Origin: Bacteroidaceae bacterium
GTDB taxonomy: Bacteria > Bacteroidota > Bacteroidia > Bacteroidales > Bacteroidaceae
DNA: 42,074 bases
Assembly (NCBI GenBank): GCA_017517605.1
Contig: JAFWYQ010000127.1
Span: 1 to 42,074 of the forward strand
Direction: 5' to 3'
In this document: in pieces, positions 3,678 to 22,257 of the stretch
How positions within the stretch are numbered: position 1 is the stretch's first letter
Layout of the letters: each line of letters starts with the position of its first letter
Made by a program: the position numbers and the translations under genes
The notes under the pieces: generated by a model
The model's database searches: none
The model's input: the letters and a program-made list of their open reading frames with translations, nothing else
What the model was told of the DNA's origin: nothing

Positions 3678-3698
3678 TGATGGGTATTGAATAGGTGC

Positions 3699-4292
3699 TT
3701 ATTTATGTCTTTTCTTCAACTCTGTAGCCAAATCCTCGATGCGCATACCTTTGCTGGTAAGTAATACGATGAGGTGGTAAATCATGTCCGAAGCCTCGTA
3801 AATGAGTCGGTCATCAGTACCATTGGTAGCTTCGATAACGGTCTCTACGGCTTCTTCGCCTACCTTTTGTGCCATACGGTTGATACCTGCTTGGAAAAGA
3901 GAGGTTGTGTATGACTTTTCGGGCATTTCTGCATATCGTTTGGCAATGAAATCTTGTAAGTAGCTGAGGAACATGATGGGTTCGTCGTTCGTTTCCCCCC
4001 AACAGGTGTCCGTGCCAGTGTGACATACGGGGCCTACAGGATTCACCTTGATAAGCAGTGTATCTTTGTCACAATCTTCTTTGATGGAGACTACATGGAG
4101 GAAATTGCCACTTTCCTCACCCTTTGTCCACAAACGGTTCTTGGTACGGCTGAAGAATGTAACTTTTCCTGTTTCCACCGTTTTGTCGAGAGCCTCTTGG
4201 TTCATGAAGCCCAACATCAGCACCTTCTTGGTGTAATTATCCTGTATAATGGCGGGTACGAGGCCATCCATTTTGTCAAAATCCAATTCCAT
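3699..4292 (-). CDS. hisIE: Bifunctional phosphoribosyl-AMP cyclohydrolase / phosphoribosyl-ATP pyrophosphatase
   Basis: Carries out histidine steps 2 and 3: pyrophosphate removal from PR-ATP and ring opening of PR-AMP. The N-terminal HisI domain (about 1-105) shows the metal-binding DCDKD (D73, D75, D77) and the zinc cysteines C74, C90 and C97 in CHTGTDTCWGE. The C-terminal HisE domain (about 108-197) carries KVGEEAVETVIEA and the helical EASDMIYHLIVLL segment. The length of 197 residues is normal for the fused protein. It lies 44 bases after hisF and 21 bases before ftsE in one direction, so it is the last histidine gene of this run. Confidence 0.96.
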   Translation of the reverse strand: MELDFDKMDGLVPAIIQDNYTKKVLMLGFMNQEALDKTVETGKVTFFSRTKNRLWTKGEESGNFLHVVSIKEDCDKDTLLIKVNPVGPVCHTGTDTCWGETNDEPIMFLSYLQDFIAKRYAEMPEKSYTTSLFQAGINRMAQKVGEEAVETVIEATNGTDDRLIYEASDMIYHLIVLLTSKGMRIEDLATELKKRHK

Positions 4293-4336
4293 ATATATAA
4301 TGTATATTTAATTCTTTATTCTTGTTTTATTACTCT

Positions 4337-5092
4337 TCATTTTCTTACGTTTATTCCTTGGGTGCAAAGGTACGACTTTAATTCGGGAATACCTATCTCT
4401 CCGAAGTGAAAAACACTGGCGGCCAATGCGGCATCTGCTTTTCCTTGGATAAATGCATCGCGGAAGTGCTCCATTGTACCTGCTCCACCGGAGGCTATGA
4501 CGGGGATGGAGACTTCGTCGGCCAATCGGGCAAGGGCTTCGTTGGCAAAGCCGGTCTTCACACCGTCGTGATTCATGCTGGTAAAGAGGATTTCGCCTGC
4601 TCCGCGGTTGTTTGCTTCGCGTGCCCAGTCAAACAAACCACGCTCGGTAGGTATGCGTCCACCGTTCAGGTAACAATGCCATCCTGCCTCTGTCTCTTTA
4701 GCGTCAATTGCCACTACACACACTTGGCTTCCAAAATGACTGGCGATTTCATCAATCAGTTCCGGTCGGCGTAGAGCAGCGGAGTTGATGCTTACTTTAT
4801 CCGCTCCGGCATTTAACAGGCGGTCAACATCGCTCAGTTCATTGATGCCACCACCTACGGTGAAGGGGATGTTGATGGTGGCCGCTATCCGGCGGACCAA
4901 GTCGGTAAAGGTCTTGCGCCCTTCGTGGCTGGCGGTGATGTCAAGATATACCAACTCGTCGGCTCCTTGCAAACTATAGGCTTGTCCCAACTCTACAGGG
5001 TCGCCTGCTTGCCGTAAGTTTACGAAGTTGGTGCCTTTTACCGTTTGTCCATCCTTAATGTCAAGACAGGGGACTATTCTTTTTGCTAACAC
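4337..5092 (-). CDS. hisF: Imidazole glycerol phosphate synthase, cyclase subunit
   Basis: Takes ammonia from HisH and converts PRFAR to imidazole glycerol phosphate and AICAR, which links histidine and purine synthesis. It is a 251-residue TIM barrel with catalytic D11 (PCLDIKDG) and D130 (VVAIDAK). The phosphate loops GGGI (about 80) and ASGGAG are intact. The family length is about 250. The gene starts 11 bases after hisA ends, so the two are tightly linked. HisF needs HisH, encoded one gene further upstream. Confidence 0.97.
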
Positions 5093-5098
5093 AATTCT

Positions 5099-5123
5099 TT
5101 CAATTATGAATTATCAATTATGA
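5099..5123. repeat. Short AATTATGAATTATC direct repeat
   Basis: A degenerate duplication of AATTATGA with an ATC insert lies across the hisA stop and the hisF start. Its 11-base gap means the repeat also supplies part of the hisA C-terminal coding sequence. It is one of several short-period repeats found at gene junctions here. Confidence 0.4.
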
Positions 5124-5835
5124 ACTCACTTAACTCTTTCAGGGTGAAGCATCCTTCGTAGAGGGCTTTTCCGAACACCACGGCAGGGATACCGGCTTCG
5201 TCCAACGCACGGATGTCTTCCAACGAACTGACTCCGCCACTGGCAATCAGGTGCAAGTCGGGGAAGGCCGTCATTATCTCTTTGTAAAGACCGATGGAGG
5301 GGCCTTGCAACATGCCATCCTTGTGGATGTCGGTACAGAGCACATTGTTCACTCCATGCTGGATATAATCATTCAGATAGGGAAGCAATTCCTGCTTGCT
5401 TTCCTCTTGCCAACCGTTTACGGATATGAATCCGTCGCGTGTGTCGGCTCCAAGAATCATCTTGTCGCTTCCGTATGCATCCAACCATTTCAAGAACAGT
5501 TCGGGCTTTTGGCTGGCAATGCTTCCCACGGTCACCATCTGTGCTCCGTTATCGAAGGCTATCGCCAAGTCCTCGTCGCTTTTGATTCCTCCTCCGAAAT
5601 CAATCTTCAGCGAGGTTCGGCCGGCAATCCTGTCTAGTACGCGGTAATTCACTACGTGTTTTGACTTGGCTCCGTCAAGATCCACCACGTGCAGACGTTG
5701 CAAGCCGTACGACTCTATTTCGAGGGCCACTTCCAAAGGGTCTTCGTTGTAGACCTTCGTGGTGGCATAATCTCCCTTGGTCAAGCGTACACACTTGCCG
5801 TCGATGATGTCTATGGCGGGTATCAGTTCTATCAT
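5104..5835 (-). CDS. hisA: Phosphoribosyl-formimino-AICAR ribotide isomerase
   Basis: Isomerises ProFAR to PRFAR, the HisF substrate. It is a 243-residue TIM barrel with the two catalytic aspartates in AIDIIDG (D9) and GADTRDGF (D131). The phosphate-binding FGGGIKSD (about 80) and ASGGV loops are present. It is clearly distinct from HisF by its own motifs and length. The order is hisH, hisA, hisF, hisIE; a 102-base gap containing a direct repeat separates hisA from hisH. Confidence 0.96.
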
Positions 5836-5855
5836 AATCAGTCTCTTTATAAGTA

Positions 5856-5916
5856 AGGTTGCCTTAGTCGGCCTTTAAGGATGCTTCAATTGGCCATTGA
5901 GGTTGCCTTAGTCGGC
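5856..5916. repeat. 17-bp direct repeat in hisH-hisA gap
   Basis: AGGTTGCCTTAGTCGGC occurs at 5856-5872 and again at 5900-5916, 44 bases apart, in the otherwise empty gap between hisH and hisA. It could be a duplicated regulator site or a spacer duplication; nothing else distinguishes these. Confidence 0.7.
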
Positions 5917-5937
5917 GTTTGATGTCAGCCTCTTTGC

Positions 5938-6534
5938 TTATGGGGTAAGATCGAGGAAGTTCTGCAATATACGTTCGCCTACCTTGCCGCTCTTTTCGGG
6001 ATGGAATTGAGTGGCATAGAAGTTGTCCTTGTGAAGGGCCGAACTGTAGGGACGGGTGTATTCAGTGCAAGCAGCCGTATGTTCGTTCAGCGGTACATAG
6101 TAGCTATGCACAAAATAGACAAACTCCGGTTGATGGAATCCCTTGAACAATTGGCTACGGGTGTCCACAATGGTGTTCCATCCCATTTGTGGCACTTTGT
6201 CTTCGTGGCACAGAGGTTGGAAGCGTTTTACATTCGCATCGAATATGCCCAAGCATTCGGTGTCGCCCTCTTCTGAATGGCTACACATCAGTTGCATACC
6301 GATGCAGATACCCAATACGGGTTGCTTCAACGAGCGTATGACTTCGTCCAATCCCCGTTCGCGCAGATAGGCCATGGTACAGCTTGCTTCGCCTTGTCCG
6401 GGGAAGATGACACGGTCGGCGGCCATCAGCTTTTCAGGGTCGTCCGTCACCAGAGGCTCCACACCCAACCGCTTCATGGCATTCACCACCGAGCAGATGT
6501 TACCGGCATTGTATTTTACGATTGCTACATTCAT
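5938..6534 (-). CDS. hisH: Imidazole glycerol phosphate synthase, glutaminase subunit
   Basis: A class I glutamine amidotransferase that hydrolyses glutamine and channels ammonia to HisF. The nucleophile is C77 in LGICIGMQL. The catalytic His and Glu are in QFHPEKSG near residues 178-180. The oxyanion-region motif PGQGEA (about 45-50) is present. The length of 198 residues is normal. It starts 21 bases after purU ends. Confidence 0.96.
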   Translation of the reverse strand: MNVAIVKYNAGNICSVVNAMKRLGVEPLVTDDPEKLMAADRVIFPGQGEASCTMAYLRERGLDEVIRSLKQPVLGICIGMQLMCSHSEEGDTECLGIFDANVKRFQPLCHEDKVPQMGWNTIVDTRSQLFKGFHQPEFVYFVHSYYVPLNEHTAACTEYTRPYSSALHKDNFYATQFHPEKSGKVGERILQNFLDLTP

Positions 6535-6555
6535 ATTATCCTCTATCTGTATGCT

Positions 6556-7437
6556 TTAGCTGAAAAGCACGGTTTTGTTTTTATAAGCCAACACCTTGCG
6601 TTCGATGTGCTTTTGTACGGCACGCGAAAGGACAATCTTTTCCAAGTCCTTGCCTTTGTTCACCAAGTCTTGCGGAGTGTCTTTGTGGGTAATGCGCACG
6701 ACATCCTGCTCGATAATAGGACCGGCATCCAAGTCGTTGGTCACATAGTGGCTGGTGGCTCCGATAATCTTTACACCACGCTCAAAGGCCGCATGATAGG
6801 GCTTTGCTCCCACAAATGCGGGGAGGAACGAGTGGTGGATGTTGATGATACGGTTGGGATATTCCTCTATCATCTGTTCCGAAATCACCTGCATATATCT
6901 GGCCAACACGATGAAGTCAATGTCCAGTTCGCGCAACAGCTCCATTTCGGCTTTCTCCTGCTCCAACTTGTTTTCCTTCGTGATGGGGAATACCCGATAG
7001 GGGATGCCGAAACGCTTGGCGGCAGGTTGCATGTCGGGATGGTTGCTTATTATAATAGGTATATCCACATCCCATTCACCGGCAGTATAGCGTGCCAACA
7101 TATCATAAAGGCAATGACTCATTTTGCTTACAAAGATGGCCATGCGCGGTTTCTCGTCGCTGAAGTAAAGGCGAAGATCCATGTTGTACTTCTTTACATA
7201 TAGTGTATTGAAGTAATCCAATATCTTGTCACGCGGAATCATGAACCCCTTCAATTCCCATTCGATGCGTCCGAAAAAAACATTTTCCATACGGTCAACA
7301 AATTGGTCGATATAGATGATGTTTCCTCCGTTGATGGTAATGAAGTTGGTTATCTCTGCCAAAATGCCCGGTCGGTCAGGGCAATGAAGCAGTAATTTCG
7401 CGGTAGTATTCATTTGTTTTTCTTTGTTATTCGTCAT
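6556..7437 (-). CDS. purU: Formyltetrahydrofolate deformylase
   Basis: Hydrolyses 10-formyl-THF to THF and formate, setting the balance of one-carbon units. An N-terminal ACT domain (about residues 10-85, with the CPDRPGILAEI motif) is followed by a formyltransferase-fold domain. That domain carries the catalytic Asn-His-Asp set in NIHHSFLPAF and DLDAGPIIEQD. The upstream ATG gives 293 residues; an ATG eight codons in, at 7413, gives 285, closer to the family, and may be the true start. A promoter matching TAnnTTTG lies just upstream. It is the first gene of the his-lys run, 21 bases before hisH. A link to histidine synthesis through AICAR, a purine intermediate that needs formyl-THF, is plausible but inferred. 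Confidence 0.93.
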   Translation of the reverse strand: MTNNKEKQMNTTAKLLLHCPDRPGILAEITNFITINGGNIIYIDQFVDRMENVFFGRIEWELKGFMIPRDKILDYFNTLYVKKYNMDLRLYFSDEKPRMAIFVSKMSHCLYDMLARYTAGEWDVDIPIIISNHPDMQPAAKRFGIPYRVFPITKENKLEQEKAEMELLRELDIDFIVLARYMQVISEQMIEEYPNRIINIHHSFLPAFVGAKPYHAAFERGVKIIGATSHYVTNDLDAGPIIEQDVVRITHKDTPQDLVNKGKDLEKIVLSRAVQKHIERKVLAYKNKTVLFS

Positions 7438-7457
7438 GCTTGCTAATTTTTGAGCGG

Positions 7458-7486
7458 CAAAGATAGCAATTTATTACGAAAACAAA
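7458..7486 (-). promoter_or_regulatory. Bacteroidetes-type promoter for purU-his-lys run
   Basis: On the minus strand TATCTTTG (7465-7458) matches the -7 consensus TAnnTTTG, and TTTG (7486-7483) lies 17 bases upstream. It is 20-odd bases before the purU start and follows the fhs terminator. Confidence 0.6.
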
Positions 7487-7525
7487 GAATATCGTGACAA
7501 ATAGTTTTAGATATTGATAAAAATA

Positions 7526-7550
7526 AGCCCTTTAGGTTGGCTAAAGGGCT
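7526..7550 (-). terminator. Rho-independent terminator after fhs
   Basis: AGCCCTTTAG (7526-7535) and CTAAAGGGCT (7541-7550) form a perfect 10-base-pair stem with a five-base loop. It is followed by a U-rich tail on the minus strand (TATTTTTATC). It lies just beyond the fhs stop and could act on both strands. Confidence 0.85.
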
Positions 7551-7577
7551 TGTTTTTGCTTCATTCTTTCAATTTAT

Positions 7578-9248
7578 TTACGACAAACCTTCTATTTCGC
7601 CATTCTTGATGTCGATGTGCAAGGCTTGGGGTTCTTTGGGTAATCCAGGCATACGCAGAATGTCGCCGGCAATGATGACGAGCATCTCTGCTCCTTGGTT
7701 GATGACGATGTCGCGTACATGAAATTCCATTCCATCGGCTACACCATACAACTTCGGATCGGTAGAGAATGAATATTGTGTCTTGGCAATACAGATGGGG
7801 AAGTGGGCAACTCCCAATTGCTGTATCTTCTTTATCATTTTCCGTGCCGTAGTGCTGTATGTCACCATGCTGGCTTTATAGATATTTTCGGCTACCTTGC
7901 TAATCTTCTCTTCAACCGATTCCTCATTTTGGTAAGCAAAACGCAATGGTGCGGATGGAGATTTGTCAATGGTATCAACCACTAATTGGGCCAATGGTAC
8001 AGCACCTTCACCACCACGGGCAAAGGCATCATTGATGGCGAAACCAACTCCTAAAACCTCTTCGCAATGTTGGCGCACGAGTTCAACCTCTTCGTCTGTG
8101 TCAAAAGCATAACGGTTGAAAGCAACAATCACCGTTTGTCCAAAGGATTGCAGATTGCGTACATGCTTGTCGATATTGCAGAAACCTTGTTTCAATCCCT
8201 CGATGTTTGGCTCCTTGATGGCATCGGCATTTACTCCTCCATGCATCTTCAACCCTTGTGCTGTAGCTACAATTATTATCAAACGTGGTTGTAAACCAGC
8301 TTTCCGGCACTTGATGTCATAGAATTTTTCTGCTCCTAAGTCTGCACCAAAACCTGCTTCGGTAATCACGTATTCGCCGAATGTCATAGCCAACTTCGTG
8401 GCTAATACCGAGTTGCACCCGTGAGCAATGTTGGCAAAGGGACCTCCATGTATAAACGCAGCTCCTCCTTCGGTCGTTTGTACCAAATTGGGGCGCAAAG
8501 CATCTTTCAAGAGTACGGTAATGGCACCCGCTACACCCAAATCCTTTACCGTGAAAGGCTTGTTGTCCAATGTGATTCCCAATAATATGTTCTCTATGCG
8601 GCGACGCAAATCATTTTCATCGGTAGCCAAGCAGAGGATGGCCATAATTTCAGAGGCAGCAGTGATGTCGAAGCCCGACTCCTGGGTAAGCCCATTGCTC
8701 TTAGGCCCAAGTCCTGTAACGATATAGCGAAGCGAGCGGTCGTTAACATCAAGTACTCTGCGCCAAAGTATCTCCTTTAATCCGAAACCATGATCCTGAT
8801 TTTGATACAGATAATTGTCAAACAATGCCGAAATCATGTTATGAGCCGATGTGATGGCATGGAAATCACCAGTAAAGTGAAGGTTTATCTTTTCCATCGG
8901 GAGCACTTGGGCATATCCGCCACCGGCGGCTCCTCCCTTCATATCGAAACAAGGGCCTAATGAAGGCTCGCGCAGAGCTACAATAGCCTTTTTCCCTAAT
9001 TTCTTCAATCCTAAAGACAGGCCAATGGAGACGGTGGTTTTTCCAATGCCGGCTTTAGTGGGAGTGATGGCCGTTACCAATATCAGATTGCTTTTGGCCA
9101 CTCGTTCGTTGTCAATTAGCTTTTCGTCCACTTTGGCAATGTATCTACCGTAATTCTCTATGCCTTTGCGGGGGATACCAGTTTCGTCAGCAACCTGTTT
9201 GATTTTCTTCAACTGTATGCTTCTTGCTATTTCTATGTCTGATTTCAT
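7578..9248 (-). CDS. fhs: Formate-tetrahydrofolate ligase
   Basis: ATP-dependent synthesis of 10-formyl-THF from formate and THF in the cytosol. The 556-residue length is standard for the bacterial enzyme. The P-loop region reads [11 protein letters not shown] (about 62-72), a variant of the usual TPxGEGK(S/T)T. Other family stretches are [23 protein letters not shown] (about 93-115) and FTGDFHAI. Its ATG overlaps the stop of the GH127 gene by four bases (ATGA), so translation is coupled to that gene. The opposing enzyme, PurU, is the next gene downstream, behind a terminator and its own promoter. Confidence 0.97.
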
Positions 9249-12169
9249 TTTGTAAAAAGTCTATTCAATCGTTTTTCTGCATTCTTAATCATATCTATTG
9301 TGCCACTTCCATCAGAGACGTATTTTACCACCATCTCGGCATAACTGATAGCTTCAGTCGTTGCAGGAGTGGGATTGTCCTCTGCAAAAGCACGTACATT
9401 CCTTAAAAGGGCGAGTAGTTCGTTTAAGTCCTCCAATTCGGCTAAGTTGCCAGGTCGCATGGTGTTGATAGCTGCATTGAGTGATGCAGTAATGCTATTG
9501 ACCTCTTCAGTAGATGCCTTTGGAGAGGCATATATCGTTTTCGCCTGTTTCAAAACCTCCATTAAGTTGCTGTATCCTCCTGGTGCCCAGGGGGCATACT
9601 CTGGTACTTTTATAGTCATAGCTTGCCATGTTTCTTGAGCATGCTGACGTTCCTCTGCAACAAGAATCAGTTCCTTCAATGTCTGCTTATTCGTGCTCAA
9701 TAGAGCATTGTTTGATTGGAAATCAGTTTGGTGTATACGTAAATAGTGGGTCGAACCCCGATCGGCATAATAGTCGGGCACAAAAGTGTATTCACCAACG
9801 GTAAGGGTATATAGATTGCCATTAGTGCCTTCGTCTGTAGTGGCTTCATTGGGTTTGATAGTCTCTAAATGCGAATCGAGATAAATATCTCCGTCCTTCC
9901 AATGCTCTATTCCTGTAGTGGCCATTGCTAAAGGACCATACATGAGTGTACCAACCCAAGCTGATGGGAATGTGGTATTGGTTTCGCCGGGAGCCGTGAC
10001 TGCTGTTTCCATTTTGTCAGGGCCATAGTGTATATGCTTGCTAAAAGGCATGGTTACCTCTACCATATCACCCTTCTTCCATTTGCGTGAAGGAATCTCA
10101 ATATAACTTGATGGAGTATATTGGGCAGAGATGGATTTCCCATTCAATTTTATGTCGAATCCTTCAGTTGCCCAATAGGGTACTCGCAGTTTCATGGAAA
10201 ACGTACCTTTTCCTTCCACAATGTGTAGTGTCGTTTGTTCTGCCGGCCAACGGCACTCTTGGTTGATTGTCACCCCTTTTTCCTTCCACATAGCAGTAGT
10301 TGGCATGTAAAGTCCTACCCACAATGTGTTTTTGGATGTGAAATAAACGGCTTCTTGATATTTCACATGGTTTTCAGAACCAGTACCTCCACAACACGAT
10401 TCTTGTGGTGTGCGGTTACCCCACGGTTTGGAGGCATTCAGTCCTACGGCATAGTGGTAGGTCGTCAAGTAATGAGTTGGGTGTAGAGAGCCAATTATCT
10501 GATTGTATAGTACACGCTCATAATAATCCATATAGGCGGCATTGTCTGGATCAAAACAGTTCAAATCCTTCGTTAGTTTGGCCAGGTTGTATGCACAACA
10601 GGTTTCGTTCAACGTCGGATTCGGGCAAAGTTGTCCATTTCGGTCAGTTGTCACATTGGTGTTCATGCTCAAAACCTGAGTATAGGGCTGACGGAACATT
10701 TCCCCGTTTCCTACACCTCCGGTAGAGTATGCATAGCGTCCTTGAACCATCTGCCAAAAGTTGTATGCAAGGTTGTAGTAGTAGGGATTTGCATTTCCTC
10801 GATAGCTACGCAGAGCGTTGGTGATTTTGGGTATATGCTGATTGGCATGGCGGGTACGGATGTCATCGATATTTCTTGATAAGGGTTCATAAAAGGCTGG
10901 ACTGTCAAAGAATGATGCCGCCTCCAACAATCGGGCTTTCTCCTTCTTGTCTTTTACCATTTCGGAAAGGCGGCTTAATGACTCTCCTGTACCCCCATCT
11001 TCACCAGCAATGTACATATTCCACATTTCATACCGATTGCCAGGTTTCGCACGTCTCTCCTCGCGCGTACCTTTATTATTTATATAGGTGCGGTAGTGTA
11101 GGCGGTTCCATATCCATAATCCCATATCCTTGGCTATAAGCAGGGCTTTGTCGGCAATATTCTTGTCGTCGACATAAGTGGCAATGTCGATGAGGCCCGC
11201 CAATTGCTTGTGGATAGAATAGTATGGGGCCCATACCCAATCGTTGTTGTTATATGGGCGATACATTTCTATAAGAACGGCATGGTGAGCAGGTATAGCA
11301 TTCAAATATCCATATCCATAGTGGGTATAATCTTGCTTGTATTGGTCAAAGGCTTCCCAGGTTCCTTTCATTTCCCGTAATTCTGCTTCTGGTGCAAAGT
11401 CACGGGCCTCCCAATAGCGACCCAACGAGTCGTCCCATACAAAAGTACGCTCCTGACATTGCCGTAATTCATCTACCATGCGTTTGATACGGCTACGCAA
11501 AGAATCTTTGATTGCAGTATCGTCAGCACTGGCAAAGGCAAATGCGAGGGCTGACATATAATGTCCTGAGCCATGTCCCTTCAGTTTGGTGGTTGGTGAA
11601 TCCCAACCATTGGAGCGTGTATAGCCTTCAGTAGATAAACCATAGGTGTCGCGATAATTGTAAAGTTGTTGGCTGACATCCCAACTAAGAATGGCCTGTA
11701 TGGCCAAGTTGCGGTTCGAGGTTAACCGATTGTTTCCTTCAATAGTCACTTGGTCAAGTGGCATCGGTTCTGCTATAGGAATGTTGGATGGAGTCGCGTA
11801 AGTTTGTCGGCATACCTTGATTTGAGCCTTGATGGGGTATCCTTCAGCAGTTGTATTGTCTCCAATGATGAAACCGTCAATGGTGTATTCCTTTCCTATA
11901 GGATATAGGGATTCATCGGCCATGACCTGTTCGGTTGCCAATGATGCATTGCTCCATCGTACTTGTCTGTACTCTGCCGTACTGTCTGTATAGGTAACCC
12001 ATACTTGATAAGGCAATCGGGGAACTGTGCCAACAGGGGATTCTACATATACCTGATGTGTATAGAGGATAGTACGTGCCTTGGTCGATTGTGCGCAGAC
12101 AACCGAAGGTATGCAGAAAAGAAAAATCAGGTATATAATGCCTTTGTAAAATCTGTATCTGTTCATCAT
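9245..12169 (-). CDS. Secreted GH127-family beta-L-arabinofuranosidase-like hydrolase
   Basis: A 974-residue protein of the GH127 (former DUF1680) family, which removes beta-L-arabinofuranose from plant glycans through a zinc-bound cysteine nucleophile. A signal peptide (about 1-26, ending VVCAQ) sends it to the periplasm or beyond. The catalytic alpha/alpha barrel (about 180-640) shows NETCC (E522, C524) and ESCCGGTG (C592-C593). These match the Glu-Cys and Cys-Cys zinc ligands of characterised GH127 enzymes. A beta-sandwich follows, then a helical tail (about 870-974). There is no SusC/SusD pair or other glycan gene nearby, unlike a usual polysaccharide-utilisation locus. A second ATG follows the first directly. 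The stop overlaps the fhs start. GH146 is a close alternative family; the substrate is not provable here. Confidence 0.85.
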
Positions 12170-12208
12170 GGGTGCATATATTATATAGAATACTGCAGTT
12201 TACAAGGG

Positions 12209-12216
12209 CAAATTTA
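12209..12216 (-). promoter_or_regulatory. Possible -7 box for GH127-fhs
   Basis: TAAATTTG on the minus strand fits TAnnTTTG about 40 bases before the GH127 start. No good -33 TTTG is seen at the right spacing, so this is weak. Confidence 0.4.
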
Positions 12217-12272
12217 CGGATAAATATTGAATTGAAGAAATATTCTTTAGGGAACCCGAAAAAAAGCGATAG

Positions 12273-12983
12273 TTATCCTACTCCTAAATCCGTATTTTCT
12301 ATTAACACTTCAATATGTGGGTCATTTTTGAGGTGAGGATATACTTCGTGTATAAACCAACGAACAAGTTTTTCATCGCGTTGTACGGTAGTGCTGTTAG
12401 GATTGAAAACGTTGATACTGAAATATTCGAAATGTTGACGGGCGGTCTTAATGTCTGCAAGGATGCGTTCTCGAGAATCTCCTTCGGTACAACAAAGCAG
12501 ACATACCCCTTGGAAATAATGGGCAATGTCTTCAGGACTGACTTGTGCAGGAATGCCTTTTCTCCATTGTTGCCGTAAAGTTGGATTAAAACTTTCTACA
12601 CCGCAACGGAATTTTACAGTGGCTGGAGCAAAACGGGCAGCAAAGTCTGCTAATTGATGCCTATACATGTAATGTGCTTCGAACCAAAGGGTATGGATTT
12701 GCTTTTCAAGAACAATCTGGGTAATCAAAGTCAATGTTTCCTCATCCAATTCCATTGCCGAACCAGAGTTGATAATATCCAATACTCCATATTGTCCTGT
12801 AACTTGTTCAAGTACAGAACGGTTTATGCTGAATGGATATGAACTTGTATCCTCATGATAATCGCAGAATGTGCATTGCTTCCAACGACATCCTTGCCCT
12901 TGAAGCAACACGAATTCGCGTGGCATTTTGGTGTGTATCAGAGAGTAACGTTCCACTTGTTTGTTGGGGCTTATTTGAGCCAT
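12273..12983 (-). CDS. Radical SAM protein, candidate queuosine-salvage enzyme
   Basis: A 236-residue radical SAM-like protein. Its cluster motif is C32-RWKQ-C37-TF-C40, that is CX4CX2C instead of the common CX3CX2C; I checked the codons and there is no misread. The third cysteine follows an aromatic residue, as in most radical SAM enzymes. Later motifs are NSGSAMELDEE (about 92), an ExH in WFEAHYMYRH and RCGVESFNP (about 147). The start overlaps the end of the queuosine-precursor transporter gene by 13 bases, so the two are translationally coupled. Known biology: QueL, a radical SAM queuine lyase, works beside YhhQ/QueT-type transporters in queuine-salvaging bacteria. Assignment to QueL is an inference from context and fold; only the radical SAM type is seen. 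Confidence 0.65.
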   Translation of the reverse strand: MAQISPNKQVERYSLIHTKMPREFVLLQGQGCRWKQCTFCDYHEDTSSYPFSINRSVLEQVTGQYGVLDIINSGSAMELDEETLTLITQIVLEKQIHTLWFEAHYMYRHQLADFAARFAPATVKFRCGVESFNPTLRQQWRKGIPAQVSPEDIAHYFQGVCLLCCTEGDSRERILADIKTARQHFEYFSINVFNPNSTTVQRDEKLVRWFIHEVYPHLKNDPHIEVLIENTDLGVG

Positions 12984-13642
12984 TTGTTTATACTACGAAT
13001 GACTGCGTATGCCATGGGAGTTCCGAATACACTTTCTATCAGTAATTTGGAGAAATACTGGAAAGCAAGCATCAATAGCAGTTCATGGATGGTGACCGTA
13101 CCCCAAAAGGCAATGAGGACAAAAGGTACTGTATCGAACAGGTAAGCAATGGCTGAACTTCCAATAGTACGTACCCATAACCGGCGTCCGCGCGTCCACA
13201 ATTTGATACGTTCCATCAGCCAGGCATTACTCAATTCGCCCAACAGAAAACCTGTAAGCGAAGCTACCACTATGCGGGGGACATAGGTGAATATATGATT
13301 ATATGCCGCTGCTGTATCTGCCAAATGGTCGGGCGAAGGTAGCCATACTCCCACTTGTGTGCATACTACCATCAGAATGTTGCAGAAGAAGGTCATCCAA
13401 ATAACGCGCTTGGCCGTGCGGAATCCCCATAATTCGGTAAGTACATCGCCTAACATATAGGCAAAGGGAAAGGTAATTGTTCCAGCATCGAAATAAAAAA
13501 GGTTGGCCAAACCTATGACCTTGACCGCCATGATGTTGGACGTAAGATAGAGAGTCACGAAAAGAGCCGTTACAATCATCAGCAATGTGTTGCCCTGTCC
13601 GGCTGTTCGGTTTTTGAAAGGGTTTTCCGATACCTTGTTCAC
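12971..13642 (-). CDS. yhhQ: Queuosine precursor transporter (YhhQ/QPTR family)
   Basis: An inner-membrane carrier of the DUF165 family that imports queuosine precursors such as preQ0, preQ1 or queuine. The 223 residues contain about six or seven hydrophobic segments (for example residues 18-45, 55-75, 80-100, 125-145, 165-215). Family motifs include ADVLTELWG-like text (MLGDVLTELWGFRTAKRV, about 63-80) and the late DTVPFVLIAFWG. It begins 24 bases after the cyuA stop and overlaps the radical SAM gene downstream by 13 bases. Which precursor it carries depends on its partner enzyme. Confidence 0.88.
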   Translation of the reverse strand: MNKVSENPFKNRTAGQGNTLLMIVTALFVTLYLTSNIMAVKVIGLANLFYFDAGTITFPFAYMLGDVLTELWGFRTAKRVIWMTFFCNILMVVCTQVGVWLPSPDHLADTAAAYNHIFTYVPRIVVASLTGFLLGELSNAWLMERIKLWTRGRRLWVRTIGSSAIAYLFDTVPFVLIAFWGTVTIHELLLMLAFQYFSKLLIESVFGTPMAYAVIRSINKWLK

Positions 13643-13666
13643 ATGTATAGTTTTTAGAGTTAAAAA

Positions 13667-14983
13667 TCAGCACCGACCAGTTTTGTGTGTCATAATATCC
13701 AGCACCAGACGGTCTGTTTCGTTCATTCCTTGTGCACCTATGCGGGTGAGGTTGCGGATGCATTGATCCACATCCTCGTCGATGATACCTTCGCAGGCTG
13801 TGACACACTTTTGTTGCATGGCCAATAGGGCTGAGAATACAGCTGTGGCTACACCGCTTGTCACCTTCATGGCACAACTGGGCTTGGCTCCATCGCATAT
13901 CATGCCCGTAATGTTGGCAATCATATTCTTTACCGCGTATGCTACCTGTTCGTATGTACCTCCCATCAGATAAGTGATGCCGCAACTACTTCCTGTAGCG
14001 GCTACAACGCAACCGCAGAGGGCAGACAAACGGCCTAAACTTTGTTTGATGTAAATGACAGTCAAGTGACTCAGTATGAGTGCACGAATCATCTGTTCTT
14101 CACTCTTGTGTGTATCCTCTGCATAGACAACTACGGGCATAGTGGCACTGATACCTTGGTTTCCACTACCTGAATTACTCATTACGGGTATCATGGCTCC
14201 AGCCATACGGGCATCACAGGCTCCACTGGTATAGGCTAAGATGTGGGCAAAGATGCTGTCACCCACTACGGGTGTTTCCATAGGTTCACGGATGGCACGT
14301 CCCAACCCATGACCATAGTCTATCTTGAACGACTCCTCGGCTGCCGCCTTGTTCAGTCGGCGGGCTTCGAGGATAAACTCTATCTCATCAATCGGGGTAG
14401 TTGTTGCAAAATCGAACACTTTGCGCAGGGTGAGGGTGGGAGAGTCGGATTCTTGTAGACTTTCAGTCGTTCCGTTTTCGGGGGAGGTCTTTACTCTTTT
14501 GTCAACCAAGACCTCTTCTCCTTTTCTGAGGAATACAAAATTGGTATGTCCGGTGGCGATTATGGCTTCCGCTTGATGACCATCCGCTTCGCAAAGCACT
14601 TCGATATATAGCTTTTCGCTGATATTCTCTTTCAGTGCTATATGGATACGTCCTTCATCAATGAATCGTTTGCCTTGTTCTACAGCCTCAGGCGTGCAAT
14701 CGCGGAGGACCTCCAATTGGTATTCCGATTTTCCGATGAGTGCACCAAGGGCAATGGCTATGGGTAGTCCAATCATACCTGTGCCGGGGATTCCTACTCC
14801 CATGGCATTTTTCAAGATGTTGGCACTCAATTGTAGCGAAATCTTTTCAGGAGTGCAACCTAACAATTCCGTAGCCTGTGCAGTACACAGGGCTACAGCT
14901 ATCGGTTCGGTACATCCGATGGCGGGTACCACTTCGCGCTTTATCAGGTCAATGATGCGTTGGCGTTCGTCTTTGGGTAACAT
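13667..14983 (-). CDS. cyuA: L-cysteine desulfidase / serine dehydratase-like protein (UPF0597, CyuA)
   Basis: A 438-residue member of the UPF0597/YhaM family. The family breaks L-cysteine into pyruvate, ammonia and sulfide using an iron-sulfur cluster. Visible motifs are AIGCTEPIAVAL (C24), NSGSGNQGISATMPV (central), GSSCGITYLMGG and MICDGAKPSCAMK, giving conserved cysteines suited to a 4Fe-4S cluster. The full length fits the family. It opens a short run with the queuosine-precursor transporter, 24 bases away. Its upstream gap is filled by a GTTGACAA palindrome and shows no clear promoter. An L-serine dehydratase activity is the main alternative. Confidence 0.85.
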   Translation of the reverse strand: MLPKDERQRIIDLIKREVVPAIGCTEPIAVALCTAQATELLGCTPEKISLQLSANILKNAMGVGIPGTGMIGLPIAIALGALIGKSEYQLEVLRDCTPEAVEQGKRFIDEGRIHIALKENISEKLYIEVLCEADGHQAEAIIATGHTNFVFLRKGEEVLVDKRVKTSPENGTTESLQESDSPTLTLRKVFDFATTTPIDEIEFILEARRLNKAAAEESFKIDYGHGLGRAIREPMETPVVGDSIFAHILAYTSGACDARMAGAMIPVMSNSGSGNQGISATMPVVVYAEDTHKSEEQMIRALILSHLTVIYIKQSLGRLSALCGCVVAATGSSCGITYLMGGTYEQVAYAVKNMIANITGMICDGAKPSCAMKVTSGVATAVFSALLAMQQKCVTACEGIIDEDVDQCIRNLTRIGAQGMNETDRLVLDIMTHKTGRC

Positions 14984-14987
14984 GATT

Positions 14988-15072
14988 AGTTGACGAGTTG
15001 ACGAGTTGACAAGTTGACAGGTTGTTTGTGCCGTGTGGCCTTGTCAACTTGTCAACTTGTCTCTTGTTAACT
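14988..15072. repeat. GTTGACAA/GTTGACGA palindromic repeat, copy 2
   Basis: Tandem GTTGACGA/GTTGACAA units on the left, TTGTCAAC units on the right, with a centre that reads GGCCACACGGCACA on the minus strand. It fills the dsbD-cyuA gap almost exactly from start codon to stop codon. Confidence 0.85.
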
Positions 15073-15077
15073 ATGTA

Positions 15078-17078
15078 TTACTTCTTATAATTCTTCAATC
15101 CGGTTTTCAGGAAGTCGATGTACTTGTTCACATCTTCGTCGTATGAATAGGATTGGTTCAGAGGCATTCCTTCGTTATCTACCAACACGTAGAAGGGCTG
15201 TGCATTAGCTCCGAACTTTATGCGTTGCAAGTAGCTCCACTTGTCACCTACGGTACGCAGGGTACGTTCCTTGCCATTCTCCATGACGGTGATATGCTCG
15301 GGCAGGGGAGCCTTTTCATCTACGTACAGTGAAATCAATACGTAGTCGTTGTCGATAATCTGCTTCACATTCTGGTCAATCCATACAGCATTTTCCATCT
15401 TGCGGCAGTTTACGCAACCGTGTCCGGTGAAGTCCAACAATACGGGCTTTCCTGCTTTCTTGGCGTATGCCATACCCTCTTCGTAGTCGAGGAAGTGAGT
15501 TTTCATCTCATCCTTGTTCAGCACGAAATCCTGGGTGGTGGCAGGGGGGGCAAAGGCACTGATAGCACGCAACGGAGCACCCCACAAACCAGGAACCATA
15601 TATACGGCAAAGGCCAACGAAATCAAGGCAAGGAAGAATCTTGTAACACCCACCTTGTCATCTTCCTCCTCGTCGTGCGGAAATTTGATTTTGCCCAACA
15701 GATAGAAGCCGAGCAGGGCAAATATCATAATCCAGAGAGAGAGGAATGTTTCGCGGTCGAGAATGTGCCATCCGTAAGCCAAGTCTGCAACAGAGAGGAA
15801 CTTCAAGGCGAATGCCAATTCCAAGAAACCGAGGGTCACTTTGATGACGTTCATCCAGTTGCCGCTCTTAGGCATAGACTTCAACCACGAGGGGAACATG
15901 GCGAACAGTGTGAACGGCAGAGCCAATGCAATGGCAAAGCCCAACATTCCCACTGCAGGGCCGATGATGTTGCCCGAAGTGGAAACCTCCACCAACAAGA
16001 AGCCGATAATGGGACCTGTACATGAGAAGGATACCAATGTCAGGGTGAAGGCCATCAGGAAGATGCTGAGGAAACCTGTAGTGTTCTCAGCCTTGCTGTC
16101 CACGGCATTGCTCCATGAAGCAGGCAAGGTGATTTCAAATGCCCCGAAGAACGATGCGGCAAATACTACCAACATCAGGAAGAACAGGATGTTGAACACC
16201 GCATTGGTCGAAAGGGCATTCAGTGCACTGGCACCGAAAATCAGTGTTACAGCCAATCCTAAGATTACATAGATAACAACGATGGAGGCACCGTAGAGCC
16301 ATGCATCACGGATACCCTTTTTCTTGTCGTCCTTTGAACGTTTCAAGAAGAAACTTACTGTCATGGGGATGATAGGCCATACACAGGGGGTGAACAGCGC
16401 TACCAAGCCACCTACCAGACCGGTAAAGAAGATGACCCAAAGTGATTGGTTGGCGGCACTGCTGTCCTCGGCTTGTCCGAATGCGGTCAATTCGTCAATG
16501 ACGGGTGTCCATAAGTCGTTTGCGGCCACTTCATTGATGACGGGTGTTGCAGCTACGGGAGTTTCACTAATCTTCAAAGGTTCAGTTTGTGCAGTAGAGG
16601 CAACTTGTGTGGTTCCTCCCTTTGCCTGTCCGGTATAGTTGAACTCCACATCCGTCGGGGGCAGACAGTTCTCGTCGTTGCAGGCACCGTATTGCAAGTA
16701 ACCCTTCAATGTGTAGGCTCCGCCGGTGAACTTTACCTTCTGCACGAAAGTACCCTTGTGCTCAAAGTAGCGGTGATTCATTTCGAACATGCTGTCGAAG
16801 TGTTCTACAACCTTTCCTTGCGGAGTCAGTTTGCCTACCAATTCGGCACCTTCCAACTTGTCGAAGTTGATGGTAGCCGACACGGGACCATCTTCAGGCA
16901 GGTCGGTAGAGTAGAGATGCCATCCGGCATCAATTGTAGCGTTGAATACCAATTCCGCTTCTGTGTCGGAAATCTTTTTCAGCTCAGTCTGGAACTTGAC
17001 AGGTTCCTGCATTTGCGCCAGCATGGGCAACACGCCGATGAGTGCAAACAGATACGTCAAAACGATTGTTTTTTTCAT
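15078..17078 (-). CDS. dsbD: Thiol:disulfide interchange protein DsbD
   Basis: Carries electrons from cytosolic thioredoxin across the inner membrane to periplasmic reductases. The 666-residue protein has all three parts: a signal peptide (1-21, ending MLAQ); an N-terminal beta domain with C133 and C138; a membrane core of about eight segments (about 213-500) with C232 in FTPCVWP and C353 in FSCTGP; and a C-terminal thioredoxin domain with C555-VN-C558 in GHGCVNCRK. Every redox cysteine pair is intact. Likely uses include cytochrome c maturation and repair of periplasmic proteins; that is inferred from the family. It may be read alone: a terminator-like gap filled with a palindrome follows it, and a promoter lies upstream. 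Confidence 0.95.
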   Translation of the reverse strand: MKKTIVLTYLFALIGVLPMLAQMQEPVKFQTELKKISDTEAELVFNATIDAGWHLYSTDLPEDGPVSATINFDKLEGAELVGKLTPQGKVVEHFDSMFEMNHRYFEHKGTFVQKVKFTGGAYTLKGYLQYGACNDENCLPPTDVEFNYTGQAKGGTTQVASTAQTEPLKISETPVAATPVINEVAANDLWTPVIDELTAFGQAEDSSAANQSLWVIFFTGLVGGLVALFTPCVWPIIPMTVSFFLKRSKDDKKKGIRDAWLYGASIVVIYVILGLAVTLIFGASALNALSTNAVFNILFFLMLVVFAASFFGAFEITLPASWSNAVDSKAENTTGFLSIFLMAFTLTLVSFSCTGPIIGFLLVEVSTSGNIIGPAVGMLGFAIALALPFTLFAMFPSWLKSMPKSGNWMNVIKVTLGFLELAFALKFLSVADLAYGWHILDRETFLSLWIMIFALLGFYLLGKIKFPHDEEEDDKVGVTRFFLALISLAFAVYMVPGLWGAPLRAISAFAPPATTQDFVLNKDEMKTHFLDYEEGMAYAKKAGKPVLLDFTGHGCVNCRKMENAVWIDQNVKQIIDNDYVLISLYVDEKAPLPEHITVMENGKERTLRTVGDKWSYLQRIKFGANAQPFYVLVDNEGMPLNQSYSYDEDVNKYIDFLKTGLKNYKK

Positions 17079-17849: not shown

Positions 17850-20018
17850 TTAATTATTCACCCCCACCTTTCCACTCTCGCGCCGTCCGTCGGGATAGGT
17901 CACGATGTAGAGGTACGTTGCCGGAGTCTTACCTACCTTCACCGTAGCTTCCCCGCTTGCAAAGGCGGCTTCGCCTACCTTCACGGCATCCATGGTGTAG
18001 ATTTCGAGCTTGGTGGCTGTGGGAGCGGTACAAGTGATGGTAGAACCATTGACTTGAATAATGAAGGGACTCACATCGGTCACTTCGCCAATCTTGGATG
18101 GATTCAATGCGCAATCGTCTTCTTTGAAGTGGTCGTAATCATTATACAATTTGTCGTGTGGGCCTGTATAAACATTCGTTCGCGGATTTTTCCAAATCAC
18201 ACTGCTGTCTGCAGAGCAGAAATAATTCAAGGTGCGTCGACAAGGGCAATCAACTTCCGCGGGGGTATATGGTTCAAGTAAATCATACGTTGAACCGATT
18301 CCTTCAATCCAGGTATCCCAACCCTGGCAACTTTCAATATCTATTTGTTTAAGAAATTGCTTGTTCACTGTTTGGGTTGAATCTATCCCTATTACGGTTA
18401 CAGGGAGATTGTAAATCGTGCAATATTCTTCTCCCATGTTTAATGAGAAATCGTAAAGAATATAATCATTTCCAATTTCTTTTAGTACTACATCGTCATA
18501 GAAAGGATGGGCTATTCCTATGTTTTTGTAGTCCTCTTTTCTCACTAAAACCTTTTTTCCTTCCTGTCTGATACGATAAACAGCTTCTTCGTTTCCTTCT
18601 ATGTATTCACAGGTGGTGTACTTTACCAATGGATAGTATGTTTTTCCATCAATCTCTTCCGGTCGGTCAAGCACAGTATAGCGGAAGTATGAATAGTCTT
18701 CATCTTGGTAGCTATAGTAGCTCCACACTGCTCCAACCCATGAGCATATAGGTTCTTTATTTGCTTGTGGGGTGGTGCAATCAATGAAATCAGGATGCAA
18801 GTATATATTCTTGCCATCGTAACGTAAGCAGGTAATTCGGCTGGGATTGTACACTGTTGAATTTGTAGATACCCTTTCGTCAATGGGGAATACATGGCTC
18901 AATGAACCAACGCCTTCAATCCAAACATCATCACGGTCTCCCGTCAAAGTGAAGCGTTTGCGCATCACTCCGTTAATCTCCACTGAATCCACTTTGGATA
19001 CGGTGCAAGTGTCATATTCTCGTATGGGGTATGAATAATCTATCGGGTCTTCAATGTCGTATAAAGACAATATTTCGACATTGTCTCCTTCCTGCAGAGT
19101 GAAATCGTAGCATAACTCGAAATTATTAAAGTATTCATCAATGGCATACACTTTACCGTTGAAATCCTGCAACTTGTCGAATGGGAACCAATACTTAGGC
19201 CCTGTCCAACTAAATGTGAAAGTGCCAGGTCTCACCTCCTCGCCCAATGTGATTTGTCGGAACTGCCCATCTGATGTCTCATTGTAATTCCAATTTTGTG
19301 TCCAAGTCATGCCAGACTTCATCCACGGCGTGGCATTCGGGTCGGCCACTTCGCCATTGAAGTAGATGGTTTTCCCGTTGCTTGCAACTTGATAGATGGT
19401 TTCCGAATAGTTTGAGCCATCGGTAGGGATAGCCATCCATCTACTGAAAAATGGGGCTTCAGCACTGCCTACACCTTCAATCCATTGTTGAAAACCGAAG
19501 TCTATCACCTTGCGGCCATGCTCGAATCGGACATCCTTTACAACTATCGGGTAAGGCCAATTATCAGGATGGTCTATCGGGGCATACGTGTATCCTATAA
19601 TTCCTTCGTTCTCATAAATGGTATCCCCCTTCTGCAACGAAAAATCGTACAACATGAAGGGCTTTCCTTTTTCAACTTCAACCCAGTTCAAGTTATCAAG
19701 ATATTCAGAGAAAGCCCACACCCGTCCTTCTGATTCACGAATATATGCCAAAAAGTCTTTCCCTTCATACAGCCTTCTCCATATATTGCCGTCAATAAGA
19801 GTATCCGTACCTAAACTGTAACAGACAGGAGTGTTGCTATAATCACGCGAAAAAGAATTGGTATAAACTAAATTTGCATACCATTTTGTACCTGTCATCG
19901 AGAACTCCGTAGAGTCTTTGTAATCCTTTACAACATCTTCATTCGAAGAATTTCCGGCATTAAGGGAAAGAATCCATGCCGATGCCGATATACACAAAAA
20001 GCAAATGATTCGTTTCAT
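17850..20018 (-). CDS. Secreted three-repeat protein of unknown function
   Basis: I do not recognise a named family. The 722-residue protein starts with a signal peptide (about 1-22, ending SLNAG). It contains three diverged units of about 190 residues. Each has a YDF(S/T)L strand followed by GD or GE (124-128, 304-308, 522-526) and ends in WIEG(V/I)GS (179-185, 366-372, 570-576). A linker (about 640-655) leads to a final beta domain whose last residues TYLYIVTYPDGRRESGKV resemble type IX secretion sorting tails. It is rich in Tyr, Trp and Asp, as in surface or glycan-binding proteins. Surface display is inferred; no T9SS gene is in the window. No clear promoter box was found. It stands alone, flanked by repeats. 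Confidence 0.8.
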   Translation of the reverse strand: MKRIICFLCISASAWILSLNAGNSSNEDVVKDYKDSTEFSMTGTKWYANLVYTNSFSRDYSNTPVCYSLGTDTLIDGNIWRRLYEGKDFLAYIRESEGRVWAFSEYLDNLNWVEVEKGKPFMLYDFSLQKGDTIYENEGIIGYTYAPIDHPDNWPYPIVVKDVRFEHGRKVIDFGFQQWIEGVGSAEAPFFSRWMAIPTDGSNYSETIYQVASNGKTIYFNGEVADPNATPWMKSGMTWTQNWNYNETSDGQFRQITLGEEVRPGTFTFSWTGPKYWFPFDKLQDFNGKVYAIDEYFNNFELCYDFTLQEGDNVEILSLYDIEDPIDYSYPIREYDTCTVSKVDSVEINGVMRKRFTLTGDRDDVWIEGVGSLSHVFPIDERVSTNSTVYNPSRITCLRYDGKNIYLHPDFIDCTTPQANKEPICSWVGAVWSYYSYQDEDYSYFRYTVLDRPEEIDGKTYYPLVKYTTCEYIEGNEEAVYRIRQEGKKVLVRKEDYKNIGIAHPFYDDVVLKEIGNDYILYDFSLNMGEEYCTIYNLPVTVIGIDSTQTVNKQFLKQIDIESCQGWDTWIEGIGSTYDLLEPYTPAEVDCPCRRTLNYFCSADSSVIWKNPRTNVYTGPHDKLYNDYDHFKEDDCALNPSKIGEVTDVSPFIIQVNGSTITCTAPTATKLEIYTMDAVKVGEAAFASGEATVKVGKTPATYLYIVTYPDGRRESGKVGVNN

Positions 20019-20776: not shown

Positions 20777-20921
20777 GACGAACGGTTCTTCACGTGGGTT
20801 TTCTAATATCTTGACATATAAATTCAAAGAATGCTTACAAGGAAAAGCATTCTTCGCAATTGTTTGGCGCATTGCTATCTACTCCTTCCCATACAGGGAA
20901 AGGCAAGGGATGGGACTCCCC

Positions 20922-22070
20922 TTACTTCTTCAACAGCTTCACAATCTCAGCCTCCAGTTGGTCGGCATCCTGGATGTCGGAGCTGCGCTTATAAAGTCCG
21001 TTGGCTCGGTCAATAAGGAAATAGGTGGGCAGGTCGCTCACACGATAGGTAAGGGCCGAACCACCTTCGGCATCGCGCACACAAATCCAGGGGAGGTTAT
21101 CGGCCGAGGTCTTCCAGAAATGTTCGTCGGTATCGAAGGATACCTGATACACCTCCAGCCCCTGTGCCGCATACTTGTCGTAGAGTTCGCGCATGGCGAT
21201 GTTGCGCGCGGGCGATTCCTGATTCTTATACACGGTGAAGTCGAGCAACACCACCTTGCCCTTCAGGTCGGTCAGGCGACGGATGGCACCGCGCAAGTCG
21301 GGCAACTCCAAATCGAGCAGAGTGACTTCGCGGATAAGCTCTTCGGGGATGGGTGTAGAGGTCGGCTTGCGGGTGTTCCTGATGCCACGCATGGCGATGT
21401 TGTGGAGATTGACGGTGCGCAACGAATGGGGATAAAAGGCATCCCACGATGTAGCCACCGCACTGTAGGCACGCACATCCTCGCGCGAGCTTTCGGGATT
21501 GAACAGCTGTCCGCCATTGATGCGCTGGAACAGAGCGTAGTAGGCCGCAGCCGAACGGGGATTGCTGTAGATGTAGTCGCGGCAAATCTGCTGCTTGTAT
21601 TCACCCACCACGCGGTCTACACTGTCGCGATAGTCACCGATGGGCAATTGGCGGGCGGCCAACTGACGAATGCGCTCCTGCAAAGCGGTCTGCTTGGCAG
21701 CAAGTTCCTTGATTTTCGCGCTCTCCACAGAACCTTCGACGGTATAGCCGGTGGCCAACGAAGGAAGGAGTCCCTTCACCGTCACCACTTCGGTGGAGTC
21801 GATTCCCAAGTTCACCACCTGACGCTCGATGCGCAGACGGTAAAACTCAGGGCCATCGGGACGCTTGTGACGGAAGACAAAATCGCCCTTCTTATCCAAC
21901 TTCACCGAATCGAGCACCTTGATACCGTCGAGGGCCGATGCCTCGAAATAGAGCATCTTGCCCTCAGCTTCACCGATTTCACCCACTACCTGGAACTGTT
22001 CGCCTCTCTCTTCACACGCAGCCAATGCCAACACAAGCGATGCGGCTGCAACGATTGTATGTTTCTTCAT
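20922..22070 (-). CDS. TlpA-like thioredoxin-fold lipoprotein lacking CxxC
   Basis: A 382-residue envelope lipoprotein: the signal peptide ends in LALAAC, making C19 the lipidated residue. An N-terminal beta domain (about 25-110, DUF4369-like) and a helical linker (about 115-240) precede a thioredoxin fold (about 250-382). In the thioredoxin part the strand KGKVVLLDF (270-278) is followed by TVYKNQESP, where redox members have WCxxC. The cis-proline loop LPTY (347-350) is kept. The only other cysteines are C163 and C330, so no dithiol site exists. It is therefore probably a binding or stress protein rather than a reductase. It is read alone, with a promoter box near 22258. Confidence 0.82.
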   Translation of the reverse strand: MKKHTIVAAASLVLALAACEERGEQFQVVGEIGEAEGKMLYFEASALDGIKVLDSVKLDKKGDFVFRHKRPDGPEFYRLRIERQVVNLGIDSTEVVTVKGLLPSLATGYTVEGSVESAKIKELAAKQTALQERIRQLAARQLPIGDYRDSVDRVVGEYKQQICRDYIYSNPRSAAAYYALFQRINGGQLFNPESSREDVRAYSAVATSWDAFYPHSLRTVNLHNIAMRGIRNTRKPTSTPIPEELIREVTLLDLELPDLRGAIRRLTDLKGKVVLLDFTVYKNQESPARNIAMRELYDKYAAQGLEVYQVSFDTDEHFWKTSADNLPWICVRDAEGGSALTYRVSDLPTYFLIDRANGLYKRSSDIQDADQLEAEIVKLLKK

Positions 22071-22093
22071 TTTACTAATAGAACGTTTCTTAA

Positions 22094-22134
22094 TCTGGAG
22101 TTCAGAAGTTCAGGAGTTACAGGAGTTCAGACAA
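22094..22134. repeat. Short-period repeat GGAGTTCAG
   Basis: AGGAGTTCAG-like units occur about four times in tandem with small changes. The rest of the gap 22071-22423 holds divergent promoters for the TlpA-like gene and pnp, and no gene. Confidence 0.5.
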
Positions 22135-22257
22135 TAGTTTCGCCTGCATGGCATCTTCGTTTTCGCTCTCTGTAGGGGCATTCCTACGGTTTGCATCATT
22201 GTCACAACTATTGTCGTCTGCACTCCTTCTCCTACACTTCAGGAATAAATTAGGCCG

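Follow-up and report, generated by a model that had tools for sequence, protein, structure and literature searches.

A radical SAM relative of the queuine lyase QueL and an adjacent QPTR-type transporter form a probable queuine-salvage pair in a Bacteroidaceae bacterium

The window analysed here, a stretch of 42,074 nucleotides (contig JAFWYQ010000127.1, assembly GCA_017517605.1) from a Bacteroidaceae bacterium, carries on its minus strand a predicted queuosine-precursor transporter of the QPTR/YhhQ type and, directly downstream of it, a radical SAM protein related to the queuine lyase QueL. The features of this gene pair are the following.

12971..13642, minus strand: QPTR/YhhQ-type queuosine-precursor transporter (predicted), 223 amino acids, GTG start; TIGR00697, clade of the QueL genomes
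12273..12983, minus strand: QueL (queuine lyase), radical SAM protein, 236 amino acids from the ATG at 12983
12864..12890, minus strand: codons of C32-x4-C37-x2-C40 in QueL, read from the sequence; 4Fe-4S ligands by homology

The initial annotation had described the downstream gene as a radical SAM enzyme, either a relative of QueL or a different salvage enzyme, and had suggested a profile and structure comparison with QueL. This comparison led to QueL itself as the family of known substrate. Residues 9-236 were found to be homologous to 6p78 (E 2.5e-47), which amounts to full-length homology to a characterised queuine lyase with an entry titled queuine-bound; Foldseek reported 40% identity between the two proteins, and the predicted model of the window protein overlays 6p78 at 1.4 A, as expected of a QueL fold. 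Judged by sequence and modelled structure, the protein can be firmly identified as a QueL relative paired with a transporter, and no support was obtained for a different salvage enzyme. The radical SAM assignment is also right, though the Pfam Radical_SAM model alone gives 16.1 bits, under its cut-off of 29.5. A model built from the single sequence was poor (mean pLDDT, the predicted local distance difference test score, of 44.3) and was set aside in favour of one built from alignment A2, which comprises 37 sequences: the window QueL, 6 of the other 9 genomes with QueL and 30 of the 43 listed QueL loci described below.

Among radical SAM enzymes in general the CX4CX2C spacing is uncommon, and it had attracted attention for this reason. 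The motif C32-x4-C37-x2-C40 is exact in the window protein, but its spacing is the rule in QueL and marks the family, being invariant in all 37 aligned sequences, where 29 columns including all three cysteines do not vary. A novel radical SAM family proposed on the grounds of this spacing was thereby ruled out. An open frame of 1138 amino acids in genome G005 was also rejected as evidence for a QueL fusion, because it runs across unreadable sequence.

In the reaction of QueL the cyclopentenediol group is removed from queuine. The initial annotation had the enzyme releasing queuine, which is wrong: passages of PMC11130926 and PMC11477304 have QueL consuming queuine and yielding preQ1, the former stating that it 'regenerates a preQ1 intermediate'. 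The window genome is a bin with a completeness of 80.5%, and therefore 101 genomes were compared. Amongst these, matches over cut-off were obtained for QueC in 47, for QueF in 56 and for either in 58. QueL was found in 10 genomes, including that of the window; it occurs in none of the 58 genomes with QueC or QueF and in 10 of the 43 others (Fisher 1.0e-4, uncorrected for descent). Within the genus of the window, none of the six apparent queuosine makers has QueL, as against eight of the nine other genomes (Fisher 0.0014, likewise uncorrected), the ninth being G006. In the window bin QueC, QueF and QueD all lack a match over cut-off. Amongst 17 genomes tested for further pathway genes, the QueD family is present in 5 of the 6 makers and in 0 of the 11 others, QueA in all 17, QueG in 16 and QueH in none. 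bTGT was recognised in 98 of the 101 genomes, 95 of them over cut-off. The bTGT pocket of the window genome reads GGLAVG, the preQ1-type according to a portion of PMC11570991, which assigns GG[LS][AS]G to queuine-inserting enzymes. The genome thus possesses a preQ1-type bTGT, QueA and QueG, through which the product of QueL could be used; with such a pocket, and with QueA and QueG kept, queuine would need conversion before use, which is the role of QueL.

The upstream gene matches TIGR00697 with 112.8 bits (cut-off 50.95) and Pfam Vut_1 with 156.7 bits, confirming its annotation as a YhhQ/QPTR transporter. A survey of relatives, also suggested at the outset, found the pairing to be well kept. 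QPTR lies directly upstream of QueL in 7 of the 10 QueL genomes. At least 48 QueL loci were present among the matches listed; after removal of five weak ones (L109-L113, 23-29% identical to part of the query), 43 in named genomes remained, one of which (L091) is probably the contig of genome G004 again. Amongst these 43, QPTR is upstream of QueL in at least 24 and downstream in at least one, and a component of an energy-coupling factor (ECF) transporter is upstream in at least 10 (nine from a QrtT-like cluster and one QueT). An upstream QPTR is present in all 18 listed Bacteroidota loci (L066-L083) in which the upstream side is not truncated. The six makers of the genus have QPTR beside QueC, with QueF near. 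Other neighbours vary: the largest cluster, with a QueK-family (PF01156) member, was found near QueL in 7 of the 43 loci, all Bacillota by record title with one member checked, and the rest in 6 or fewer, with one to three members per cluster run against Pfam.

Two interrupted frames were observed in this survey. At L085:5001-5696 (uncultured Oscillospiraceae) a single TAG stands in the QueL frame where relatives have an aromatic residue, and the frame otherwise reads on; gene decay, misassembly or recoding of the stop could each account for this. At L084:4300-5000 (uncultured bacterium) the QPTR that precedes a seemingly intact QueL contains a single in-frame TAG, and recoding is unlikely here because 5 of the 14 open frames examined at this locus end in TAG.

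The initial annotation placed the start of QueL 13 bases inside the end of QPTR, an overlap that depends on the ATG at 12983. The first nine residues from this start have no counterpart in most relatives, and the codon of residue 10 is ATG in 8 of 9 related genes and GTG in the remaining one (G012). In the window this codon is a GTG at 12956, which on sequence comparison is probably the conserved start; it would give a protein of 227 amino acids and a gap of 14 bases after the QPTR stop, making the overlap in the window itself doubtful. In relatives, tight spacing is the rule all the same. A further 18 Bacteroidota loci all have ATG as the residue-10 codon; 11 of them show overlaps of 1-29 bases and 7 show gaps of 1-53. 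In 5 of the 6 remaining loci this codon is no start and the spacing is not comparable.

A tree of 89 QPTR rows was built by a quick method, and long branches outside the two clades described here are unsure. Its rows are 65 from 63 of the 67 QPTR-bearing genomes (all but G044, G046, G056 and G074) and 24 of the 25 QPTRs found next to QueL (all but the broken one of L084). QueL genomes or loci account for 34 rows, of which 33 fall with the QPTR of G006 into one clade of 34 rows, with a Shimodaira-Hasegawa-like approximate likelihood ratio test (SH-aLRT) support of 99; the lone QPTR of a QueL locus outside it, that of L098, is a distant Clostridia protein encoded downstream of QueL. A second clade of 48 rows, also with SH-aLRT 99, holds 36 of 38 maker rows, all 10 rows from QueF-only genomes and two others. 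With seven distant or unplaced rows left out and G006 placed in the QueL clade, mean identity inside the two clades is 67% and 59%, against 30% from one clade to the other (range 23.8-38.6). The clades are told apart by 31 columns, in which one letter is shared by at least 85% of one clade and a different letter by at least 80% of the other; 26 columns agree in 97% or more of the 82 pooled rows. QueL and QPTR distances correlate (r 0.895 over 29 loci with both, and 0 of 2000 permutations as high; 0.768 within 24 Bacteroidota).

Taken together, we consider that QPTR and QueL form an indirect queuine-salvage module standing in for the missing preQ0/preQ1 synthesis genes, with a probability of roughly 0.88. 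QPTR would import queuine and perhaps other precursors too, the 4Fe-4S radical SAM enzyme QueL would convert the imported queuine to preQ1, and the preQ1-type bTGT followed by QueA and QueG would rebuild queuosine on tRNA. The two genes may well be expressed as one unit. The pairing and the separate clade fit an old two-gene unit, of which the QPTR would be queuine-specific. Whether the QueL-linked QPTRs of Bacteroidales, Spirochaetota and one Oscillospiraceae genome constitute a distinct, dedicated queuine-importing subfamily, forming with QueL a two-gene cassette that is inherited or transferred as a unit, has taken over from preQ0/preQ1 synthesis in one genus and takes up queuine as the free base, without QueK, is in our view an even bet. 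No description of this clade in Bacteroidales was met in the parts of the literature searched, and one may still be in print.

Several observations weigh against the salvage module. QPTR and QueL are about 2.6 kb apart in G005 and G014, and on separate contigs in G012. Neither QPTR nor an ECF component was recognised in 8 of the 43 listed loci, one of which (L091) is truncated by the end of its contig and starts inside QueL. Shared descent is not corrected for in the Fisher values or in the distance correlation. Completeness is 65-85% for the eight QueL genomes of the genus and 88-99% for its six makers, so that missing synthesis genes partly reflect incompleteness; the two QueL genomes of another genus, 98% and 94% complete, are also without QueC, QueF and QueD. 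QueA of G014 was called from a second, two-piece match, QueG is missing from G004 and its frame is interrupted by a single stop in both G013 and G006, and bTGT was not found in G013. Finally, G006 (91% complete) has a QPTR of the same clade and no QueL, QueC or QueF over cut-off.

Two side observations concern these genomes. The QPTRs of G006 (L054:9764-10417) and G012 (L061:9096-9767) adjoin the same two genes, the QueL of G012 lying elsewhere. The one other gene between QPTR and QueL in G014 (L046, ~7080-9700) encodes a protein of 844 amino acids that by eye resembles a secreted arabinan-degrading glycosidase; in the window it is after QueL that a GH127-like gene is found.

Amongst other explanations, the one surviving best, improbable as it is, holds that the neighbouring QPTR carries preQ0 or preQ1 like the E. 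coli protein, with queuine arriving by another route and adjacency reflecting shared regulation only. Passages of PMC11130926 report that QPTR specificity differs from member to member, and G006 retains its QPTR without QueL. Against this, no QueL genome has QueF over cut-off, so that the usual enzyme could not turn imported preQ0 into preQ1, although preQ1 taken up as such would still be usable; the separate clade, its distinguishing columns and the co-variation with QueL also speak against this explanation.

We regard it as unlikely that the QueL-fold enzyme acts on another queuosine-derived substrate, for instance the nucleoside Q, making a separate nucleosidase unneeded. The QueK family (PF01156) has no match over cut-off in the 17 genomes, with control genomes matched in 5 of 14 and weaker matches under cut-off in four of the 17, one of them a QueL genome (G013); the PF01156 cluster of the seven Bacillota loci described above is also in keeping with this explanation. 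The lack of a recognised QueK points to free queuine import or to an unrecognised nucleosidase. However, free queuine import would need no nucleosidase, another nucleosidase family may exist, and the structure overlaid by the window model is that of a queuine-bound enzyme. A search for Qng1 as the missing nucleosidase gave 0 of 17 genomes and also none of the control genomes, and so says nothing.

The minus-strand gene order is DsbD-like, PF03313, QPTR, QueL, GH127-like and formate-tetrahydrofolate ligase, the genes flanking the pair being the following.

15078-17078, minus strand: DsbD-like gene
13667..14983, minus strand: PF03313 neighbour (238.9 bits), 24-base gap to QPTR
9245-12169, minus strand: GH127-like gene, after QueL
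7578-9248, minus strand: formate-tetrahydrofolate ligase

The PF03313 (SDH_alpha) gene had been named cyuA and linked to the pair; the family match and shared direction hold, but the name is the initial annotation's own and the link is local to close species. A functional partnership of this gene with the salvage pair is very unlikely, despite its proximity in the window. In the window genome, G005, G014 and G012 (4 of 10 QueL genomes) it lies next to the two genes or to one of them, and around QueL in the other six, where some stretches are short, it was not found; this placement looks like local gene order. Apart from the QPTR, QrtT-like and QueK-type clusters no neighbour cluster exceeds 6 of the 43 listed loci, and there is no apparent chemical link to queuine salvage, to which the gene is not thought to belong. 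A serine dehydratase beta-chain cluster does start within 2.4 kb of QueL in at least four other loci. In L085, L097, L102 and L103 (Bacillota) such a beta-chain-type gene is followed by an alpha-chain gene of the same Pfam family as the cyuA-like gene (Pfam run on one of each), probably a coincidence. Finally, a radical SAM enzyme of another family with no queuine link, such as a RaSEA-like archaeosine enzyme or a maturase of ribosomally synthesised and post-translationally modified peptides (RiPPs), was ruled out for practical purposes, as the weak NCBIfam matches to RaSEA (TIGR01210; 21.4 bits, cut-off 212.15) and rSAM_ocin_1 (18.8 bits, cut-off 281.85) fall far short, RaSEA is weakly matched also by the Clostridioides difficile QueL (44.0 bits) and a protein close to 6p78 (57.2 bits), and both sequence and fold clearly point to 6p78 as the best match.

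Elsewhere in the window, positions 2922-7437 hold HisIE, HisF, HisA and HisH beside PurU and an FtsE-like ATPase (FtsE model under cut-off), which is an ordinary histidine and one-carbon gene run. Two long open frames, at 17850-20018 (minus strand, 722 amino acids) and 20811-22175 (plus strand, 454 amino acids), have no NCBIfam match at 1e-5. A megablast of window positions 11500-15500 for plasmids gave no match.

Hosts and gut microbes may compete for queuine, which is a micronutrient. A QueL-tied QPTR clade defined by sequence would separate queuine consumers from preQ0/preQ1 importers in Bacteroidales, which the family name alone does not do. The genus of the window, with apparent queuosine makers and apparent recyclers side by side, is convenient for studying the switch.

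Compared with known systems, the window pair resembles most closely the QueL of 6p78 (Clostridium spiroforme) in its lyase, and the queK-qrtT-queL operon of C. difficile in having a precursor transporter just upstream and a genome without recognised preQ1 synthesis genes. It differs from this operon in that the transporter is a QPTR and not an ECF component, the genome has no gene of the QueK family over cut-off, which places it outside the QueKL type, and an Rfam scan of the window gave no match at gathering scores, hence no recognised preQ1 riboswitch, whereas the C. difficile locus has one according to a passage of PMC11477304. The transporter belongs to the same family (COG1738), with similar length, as the QPTR/YhhQ of preQ0-making Bacteroidales, but is only about 30% identical to it, in a separate clade, and accompanies QueL in place of QueC and QueF. 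Like Chlamydia trachomatis, in which a QPTR of predicted queuine specificity serves direct salvage, the organism would take up queuine; in contrast to C. trachomatis, it retains QueA and QueG and has a preQ1-type bTGT, which sets it apart from direct salvage. On the whole, the QPTR-QueL pair looks like an already known salvage route.
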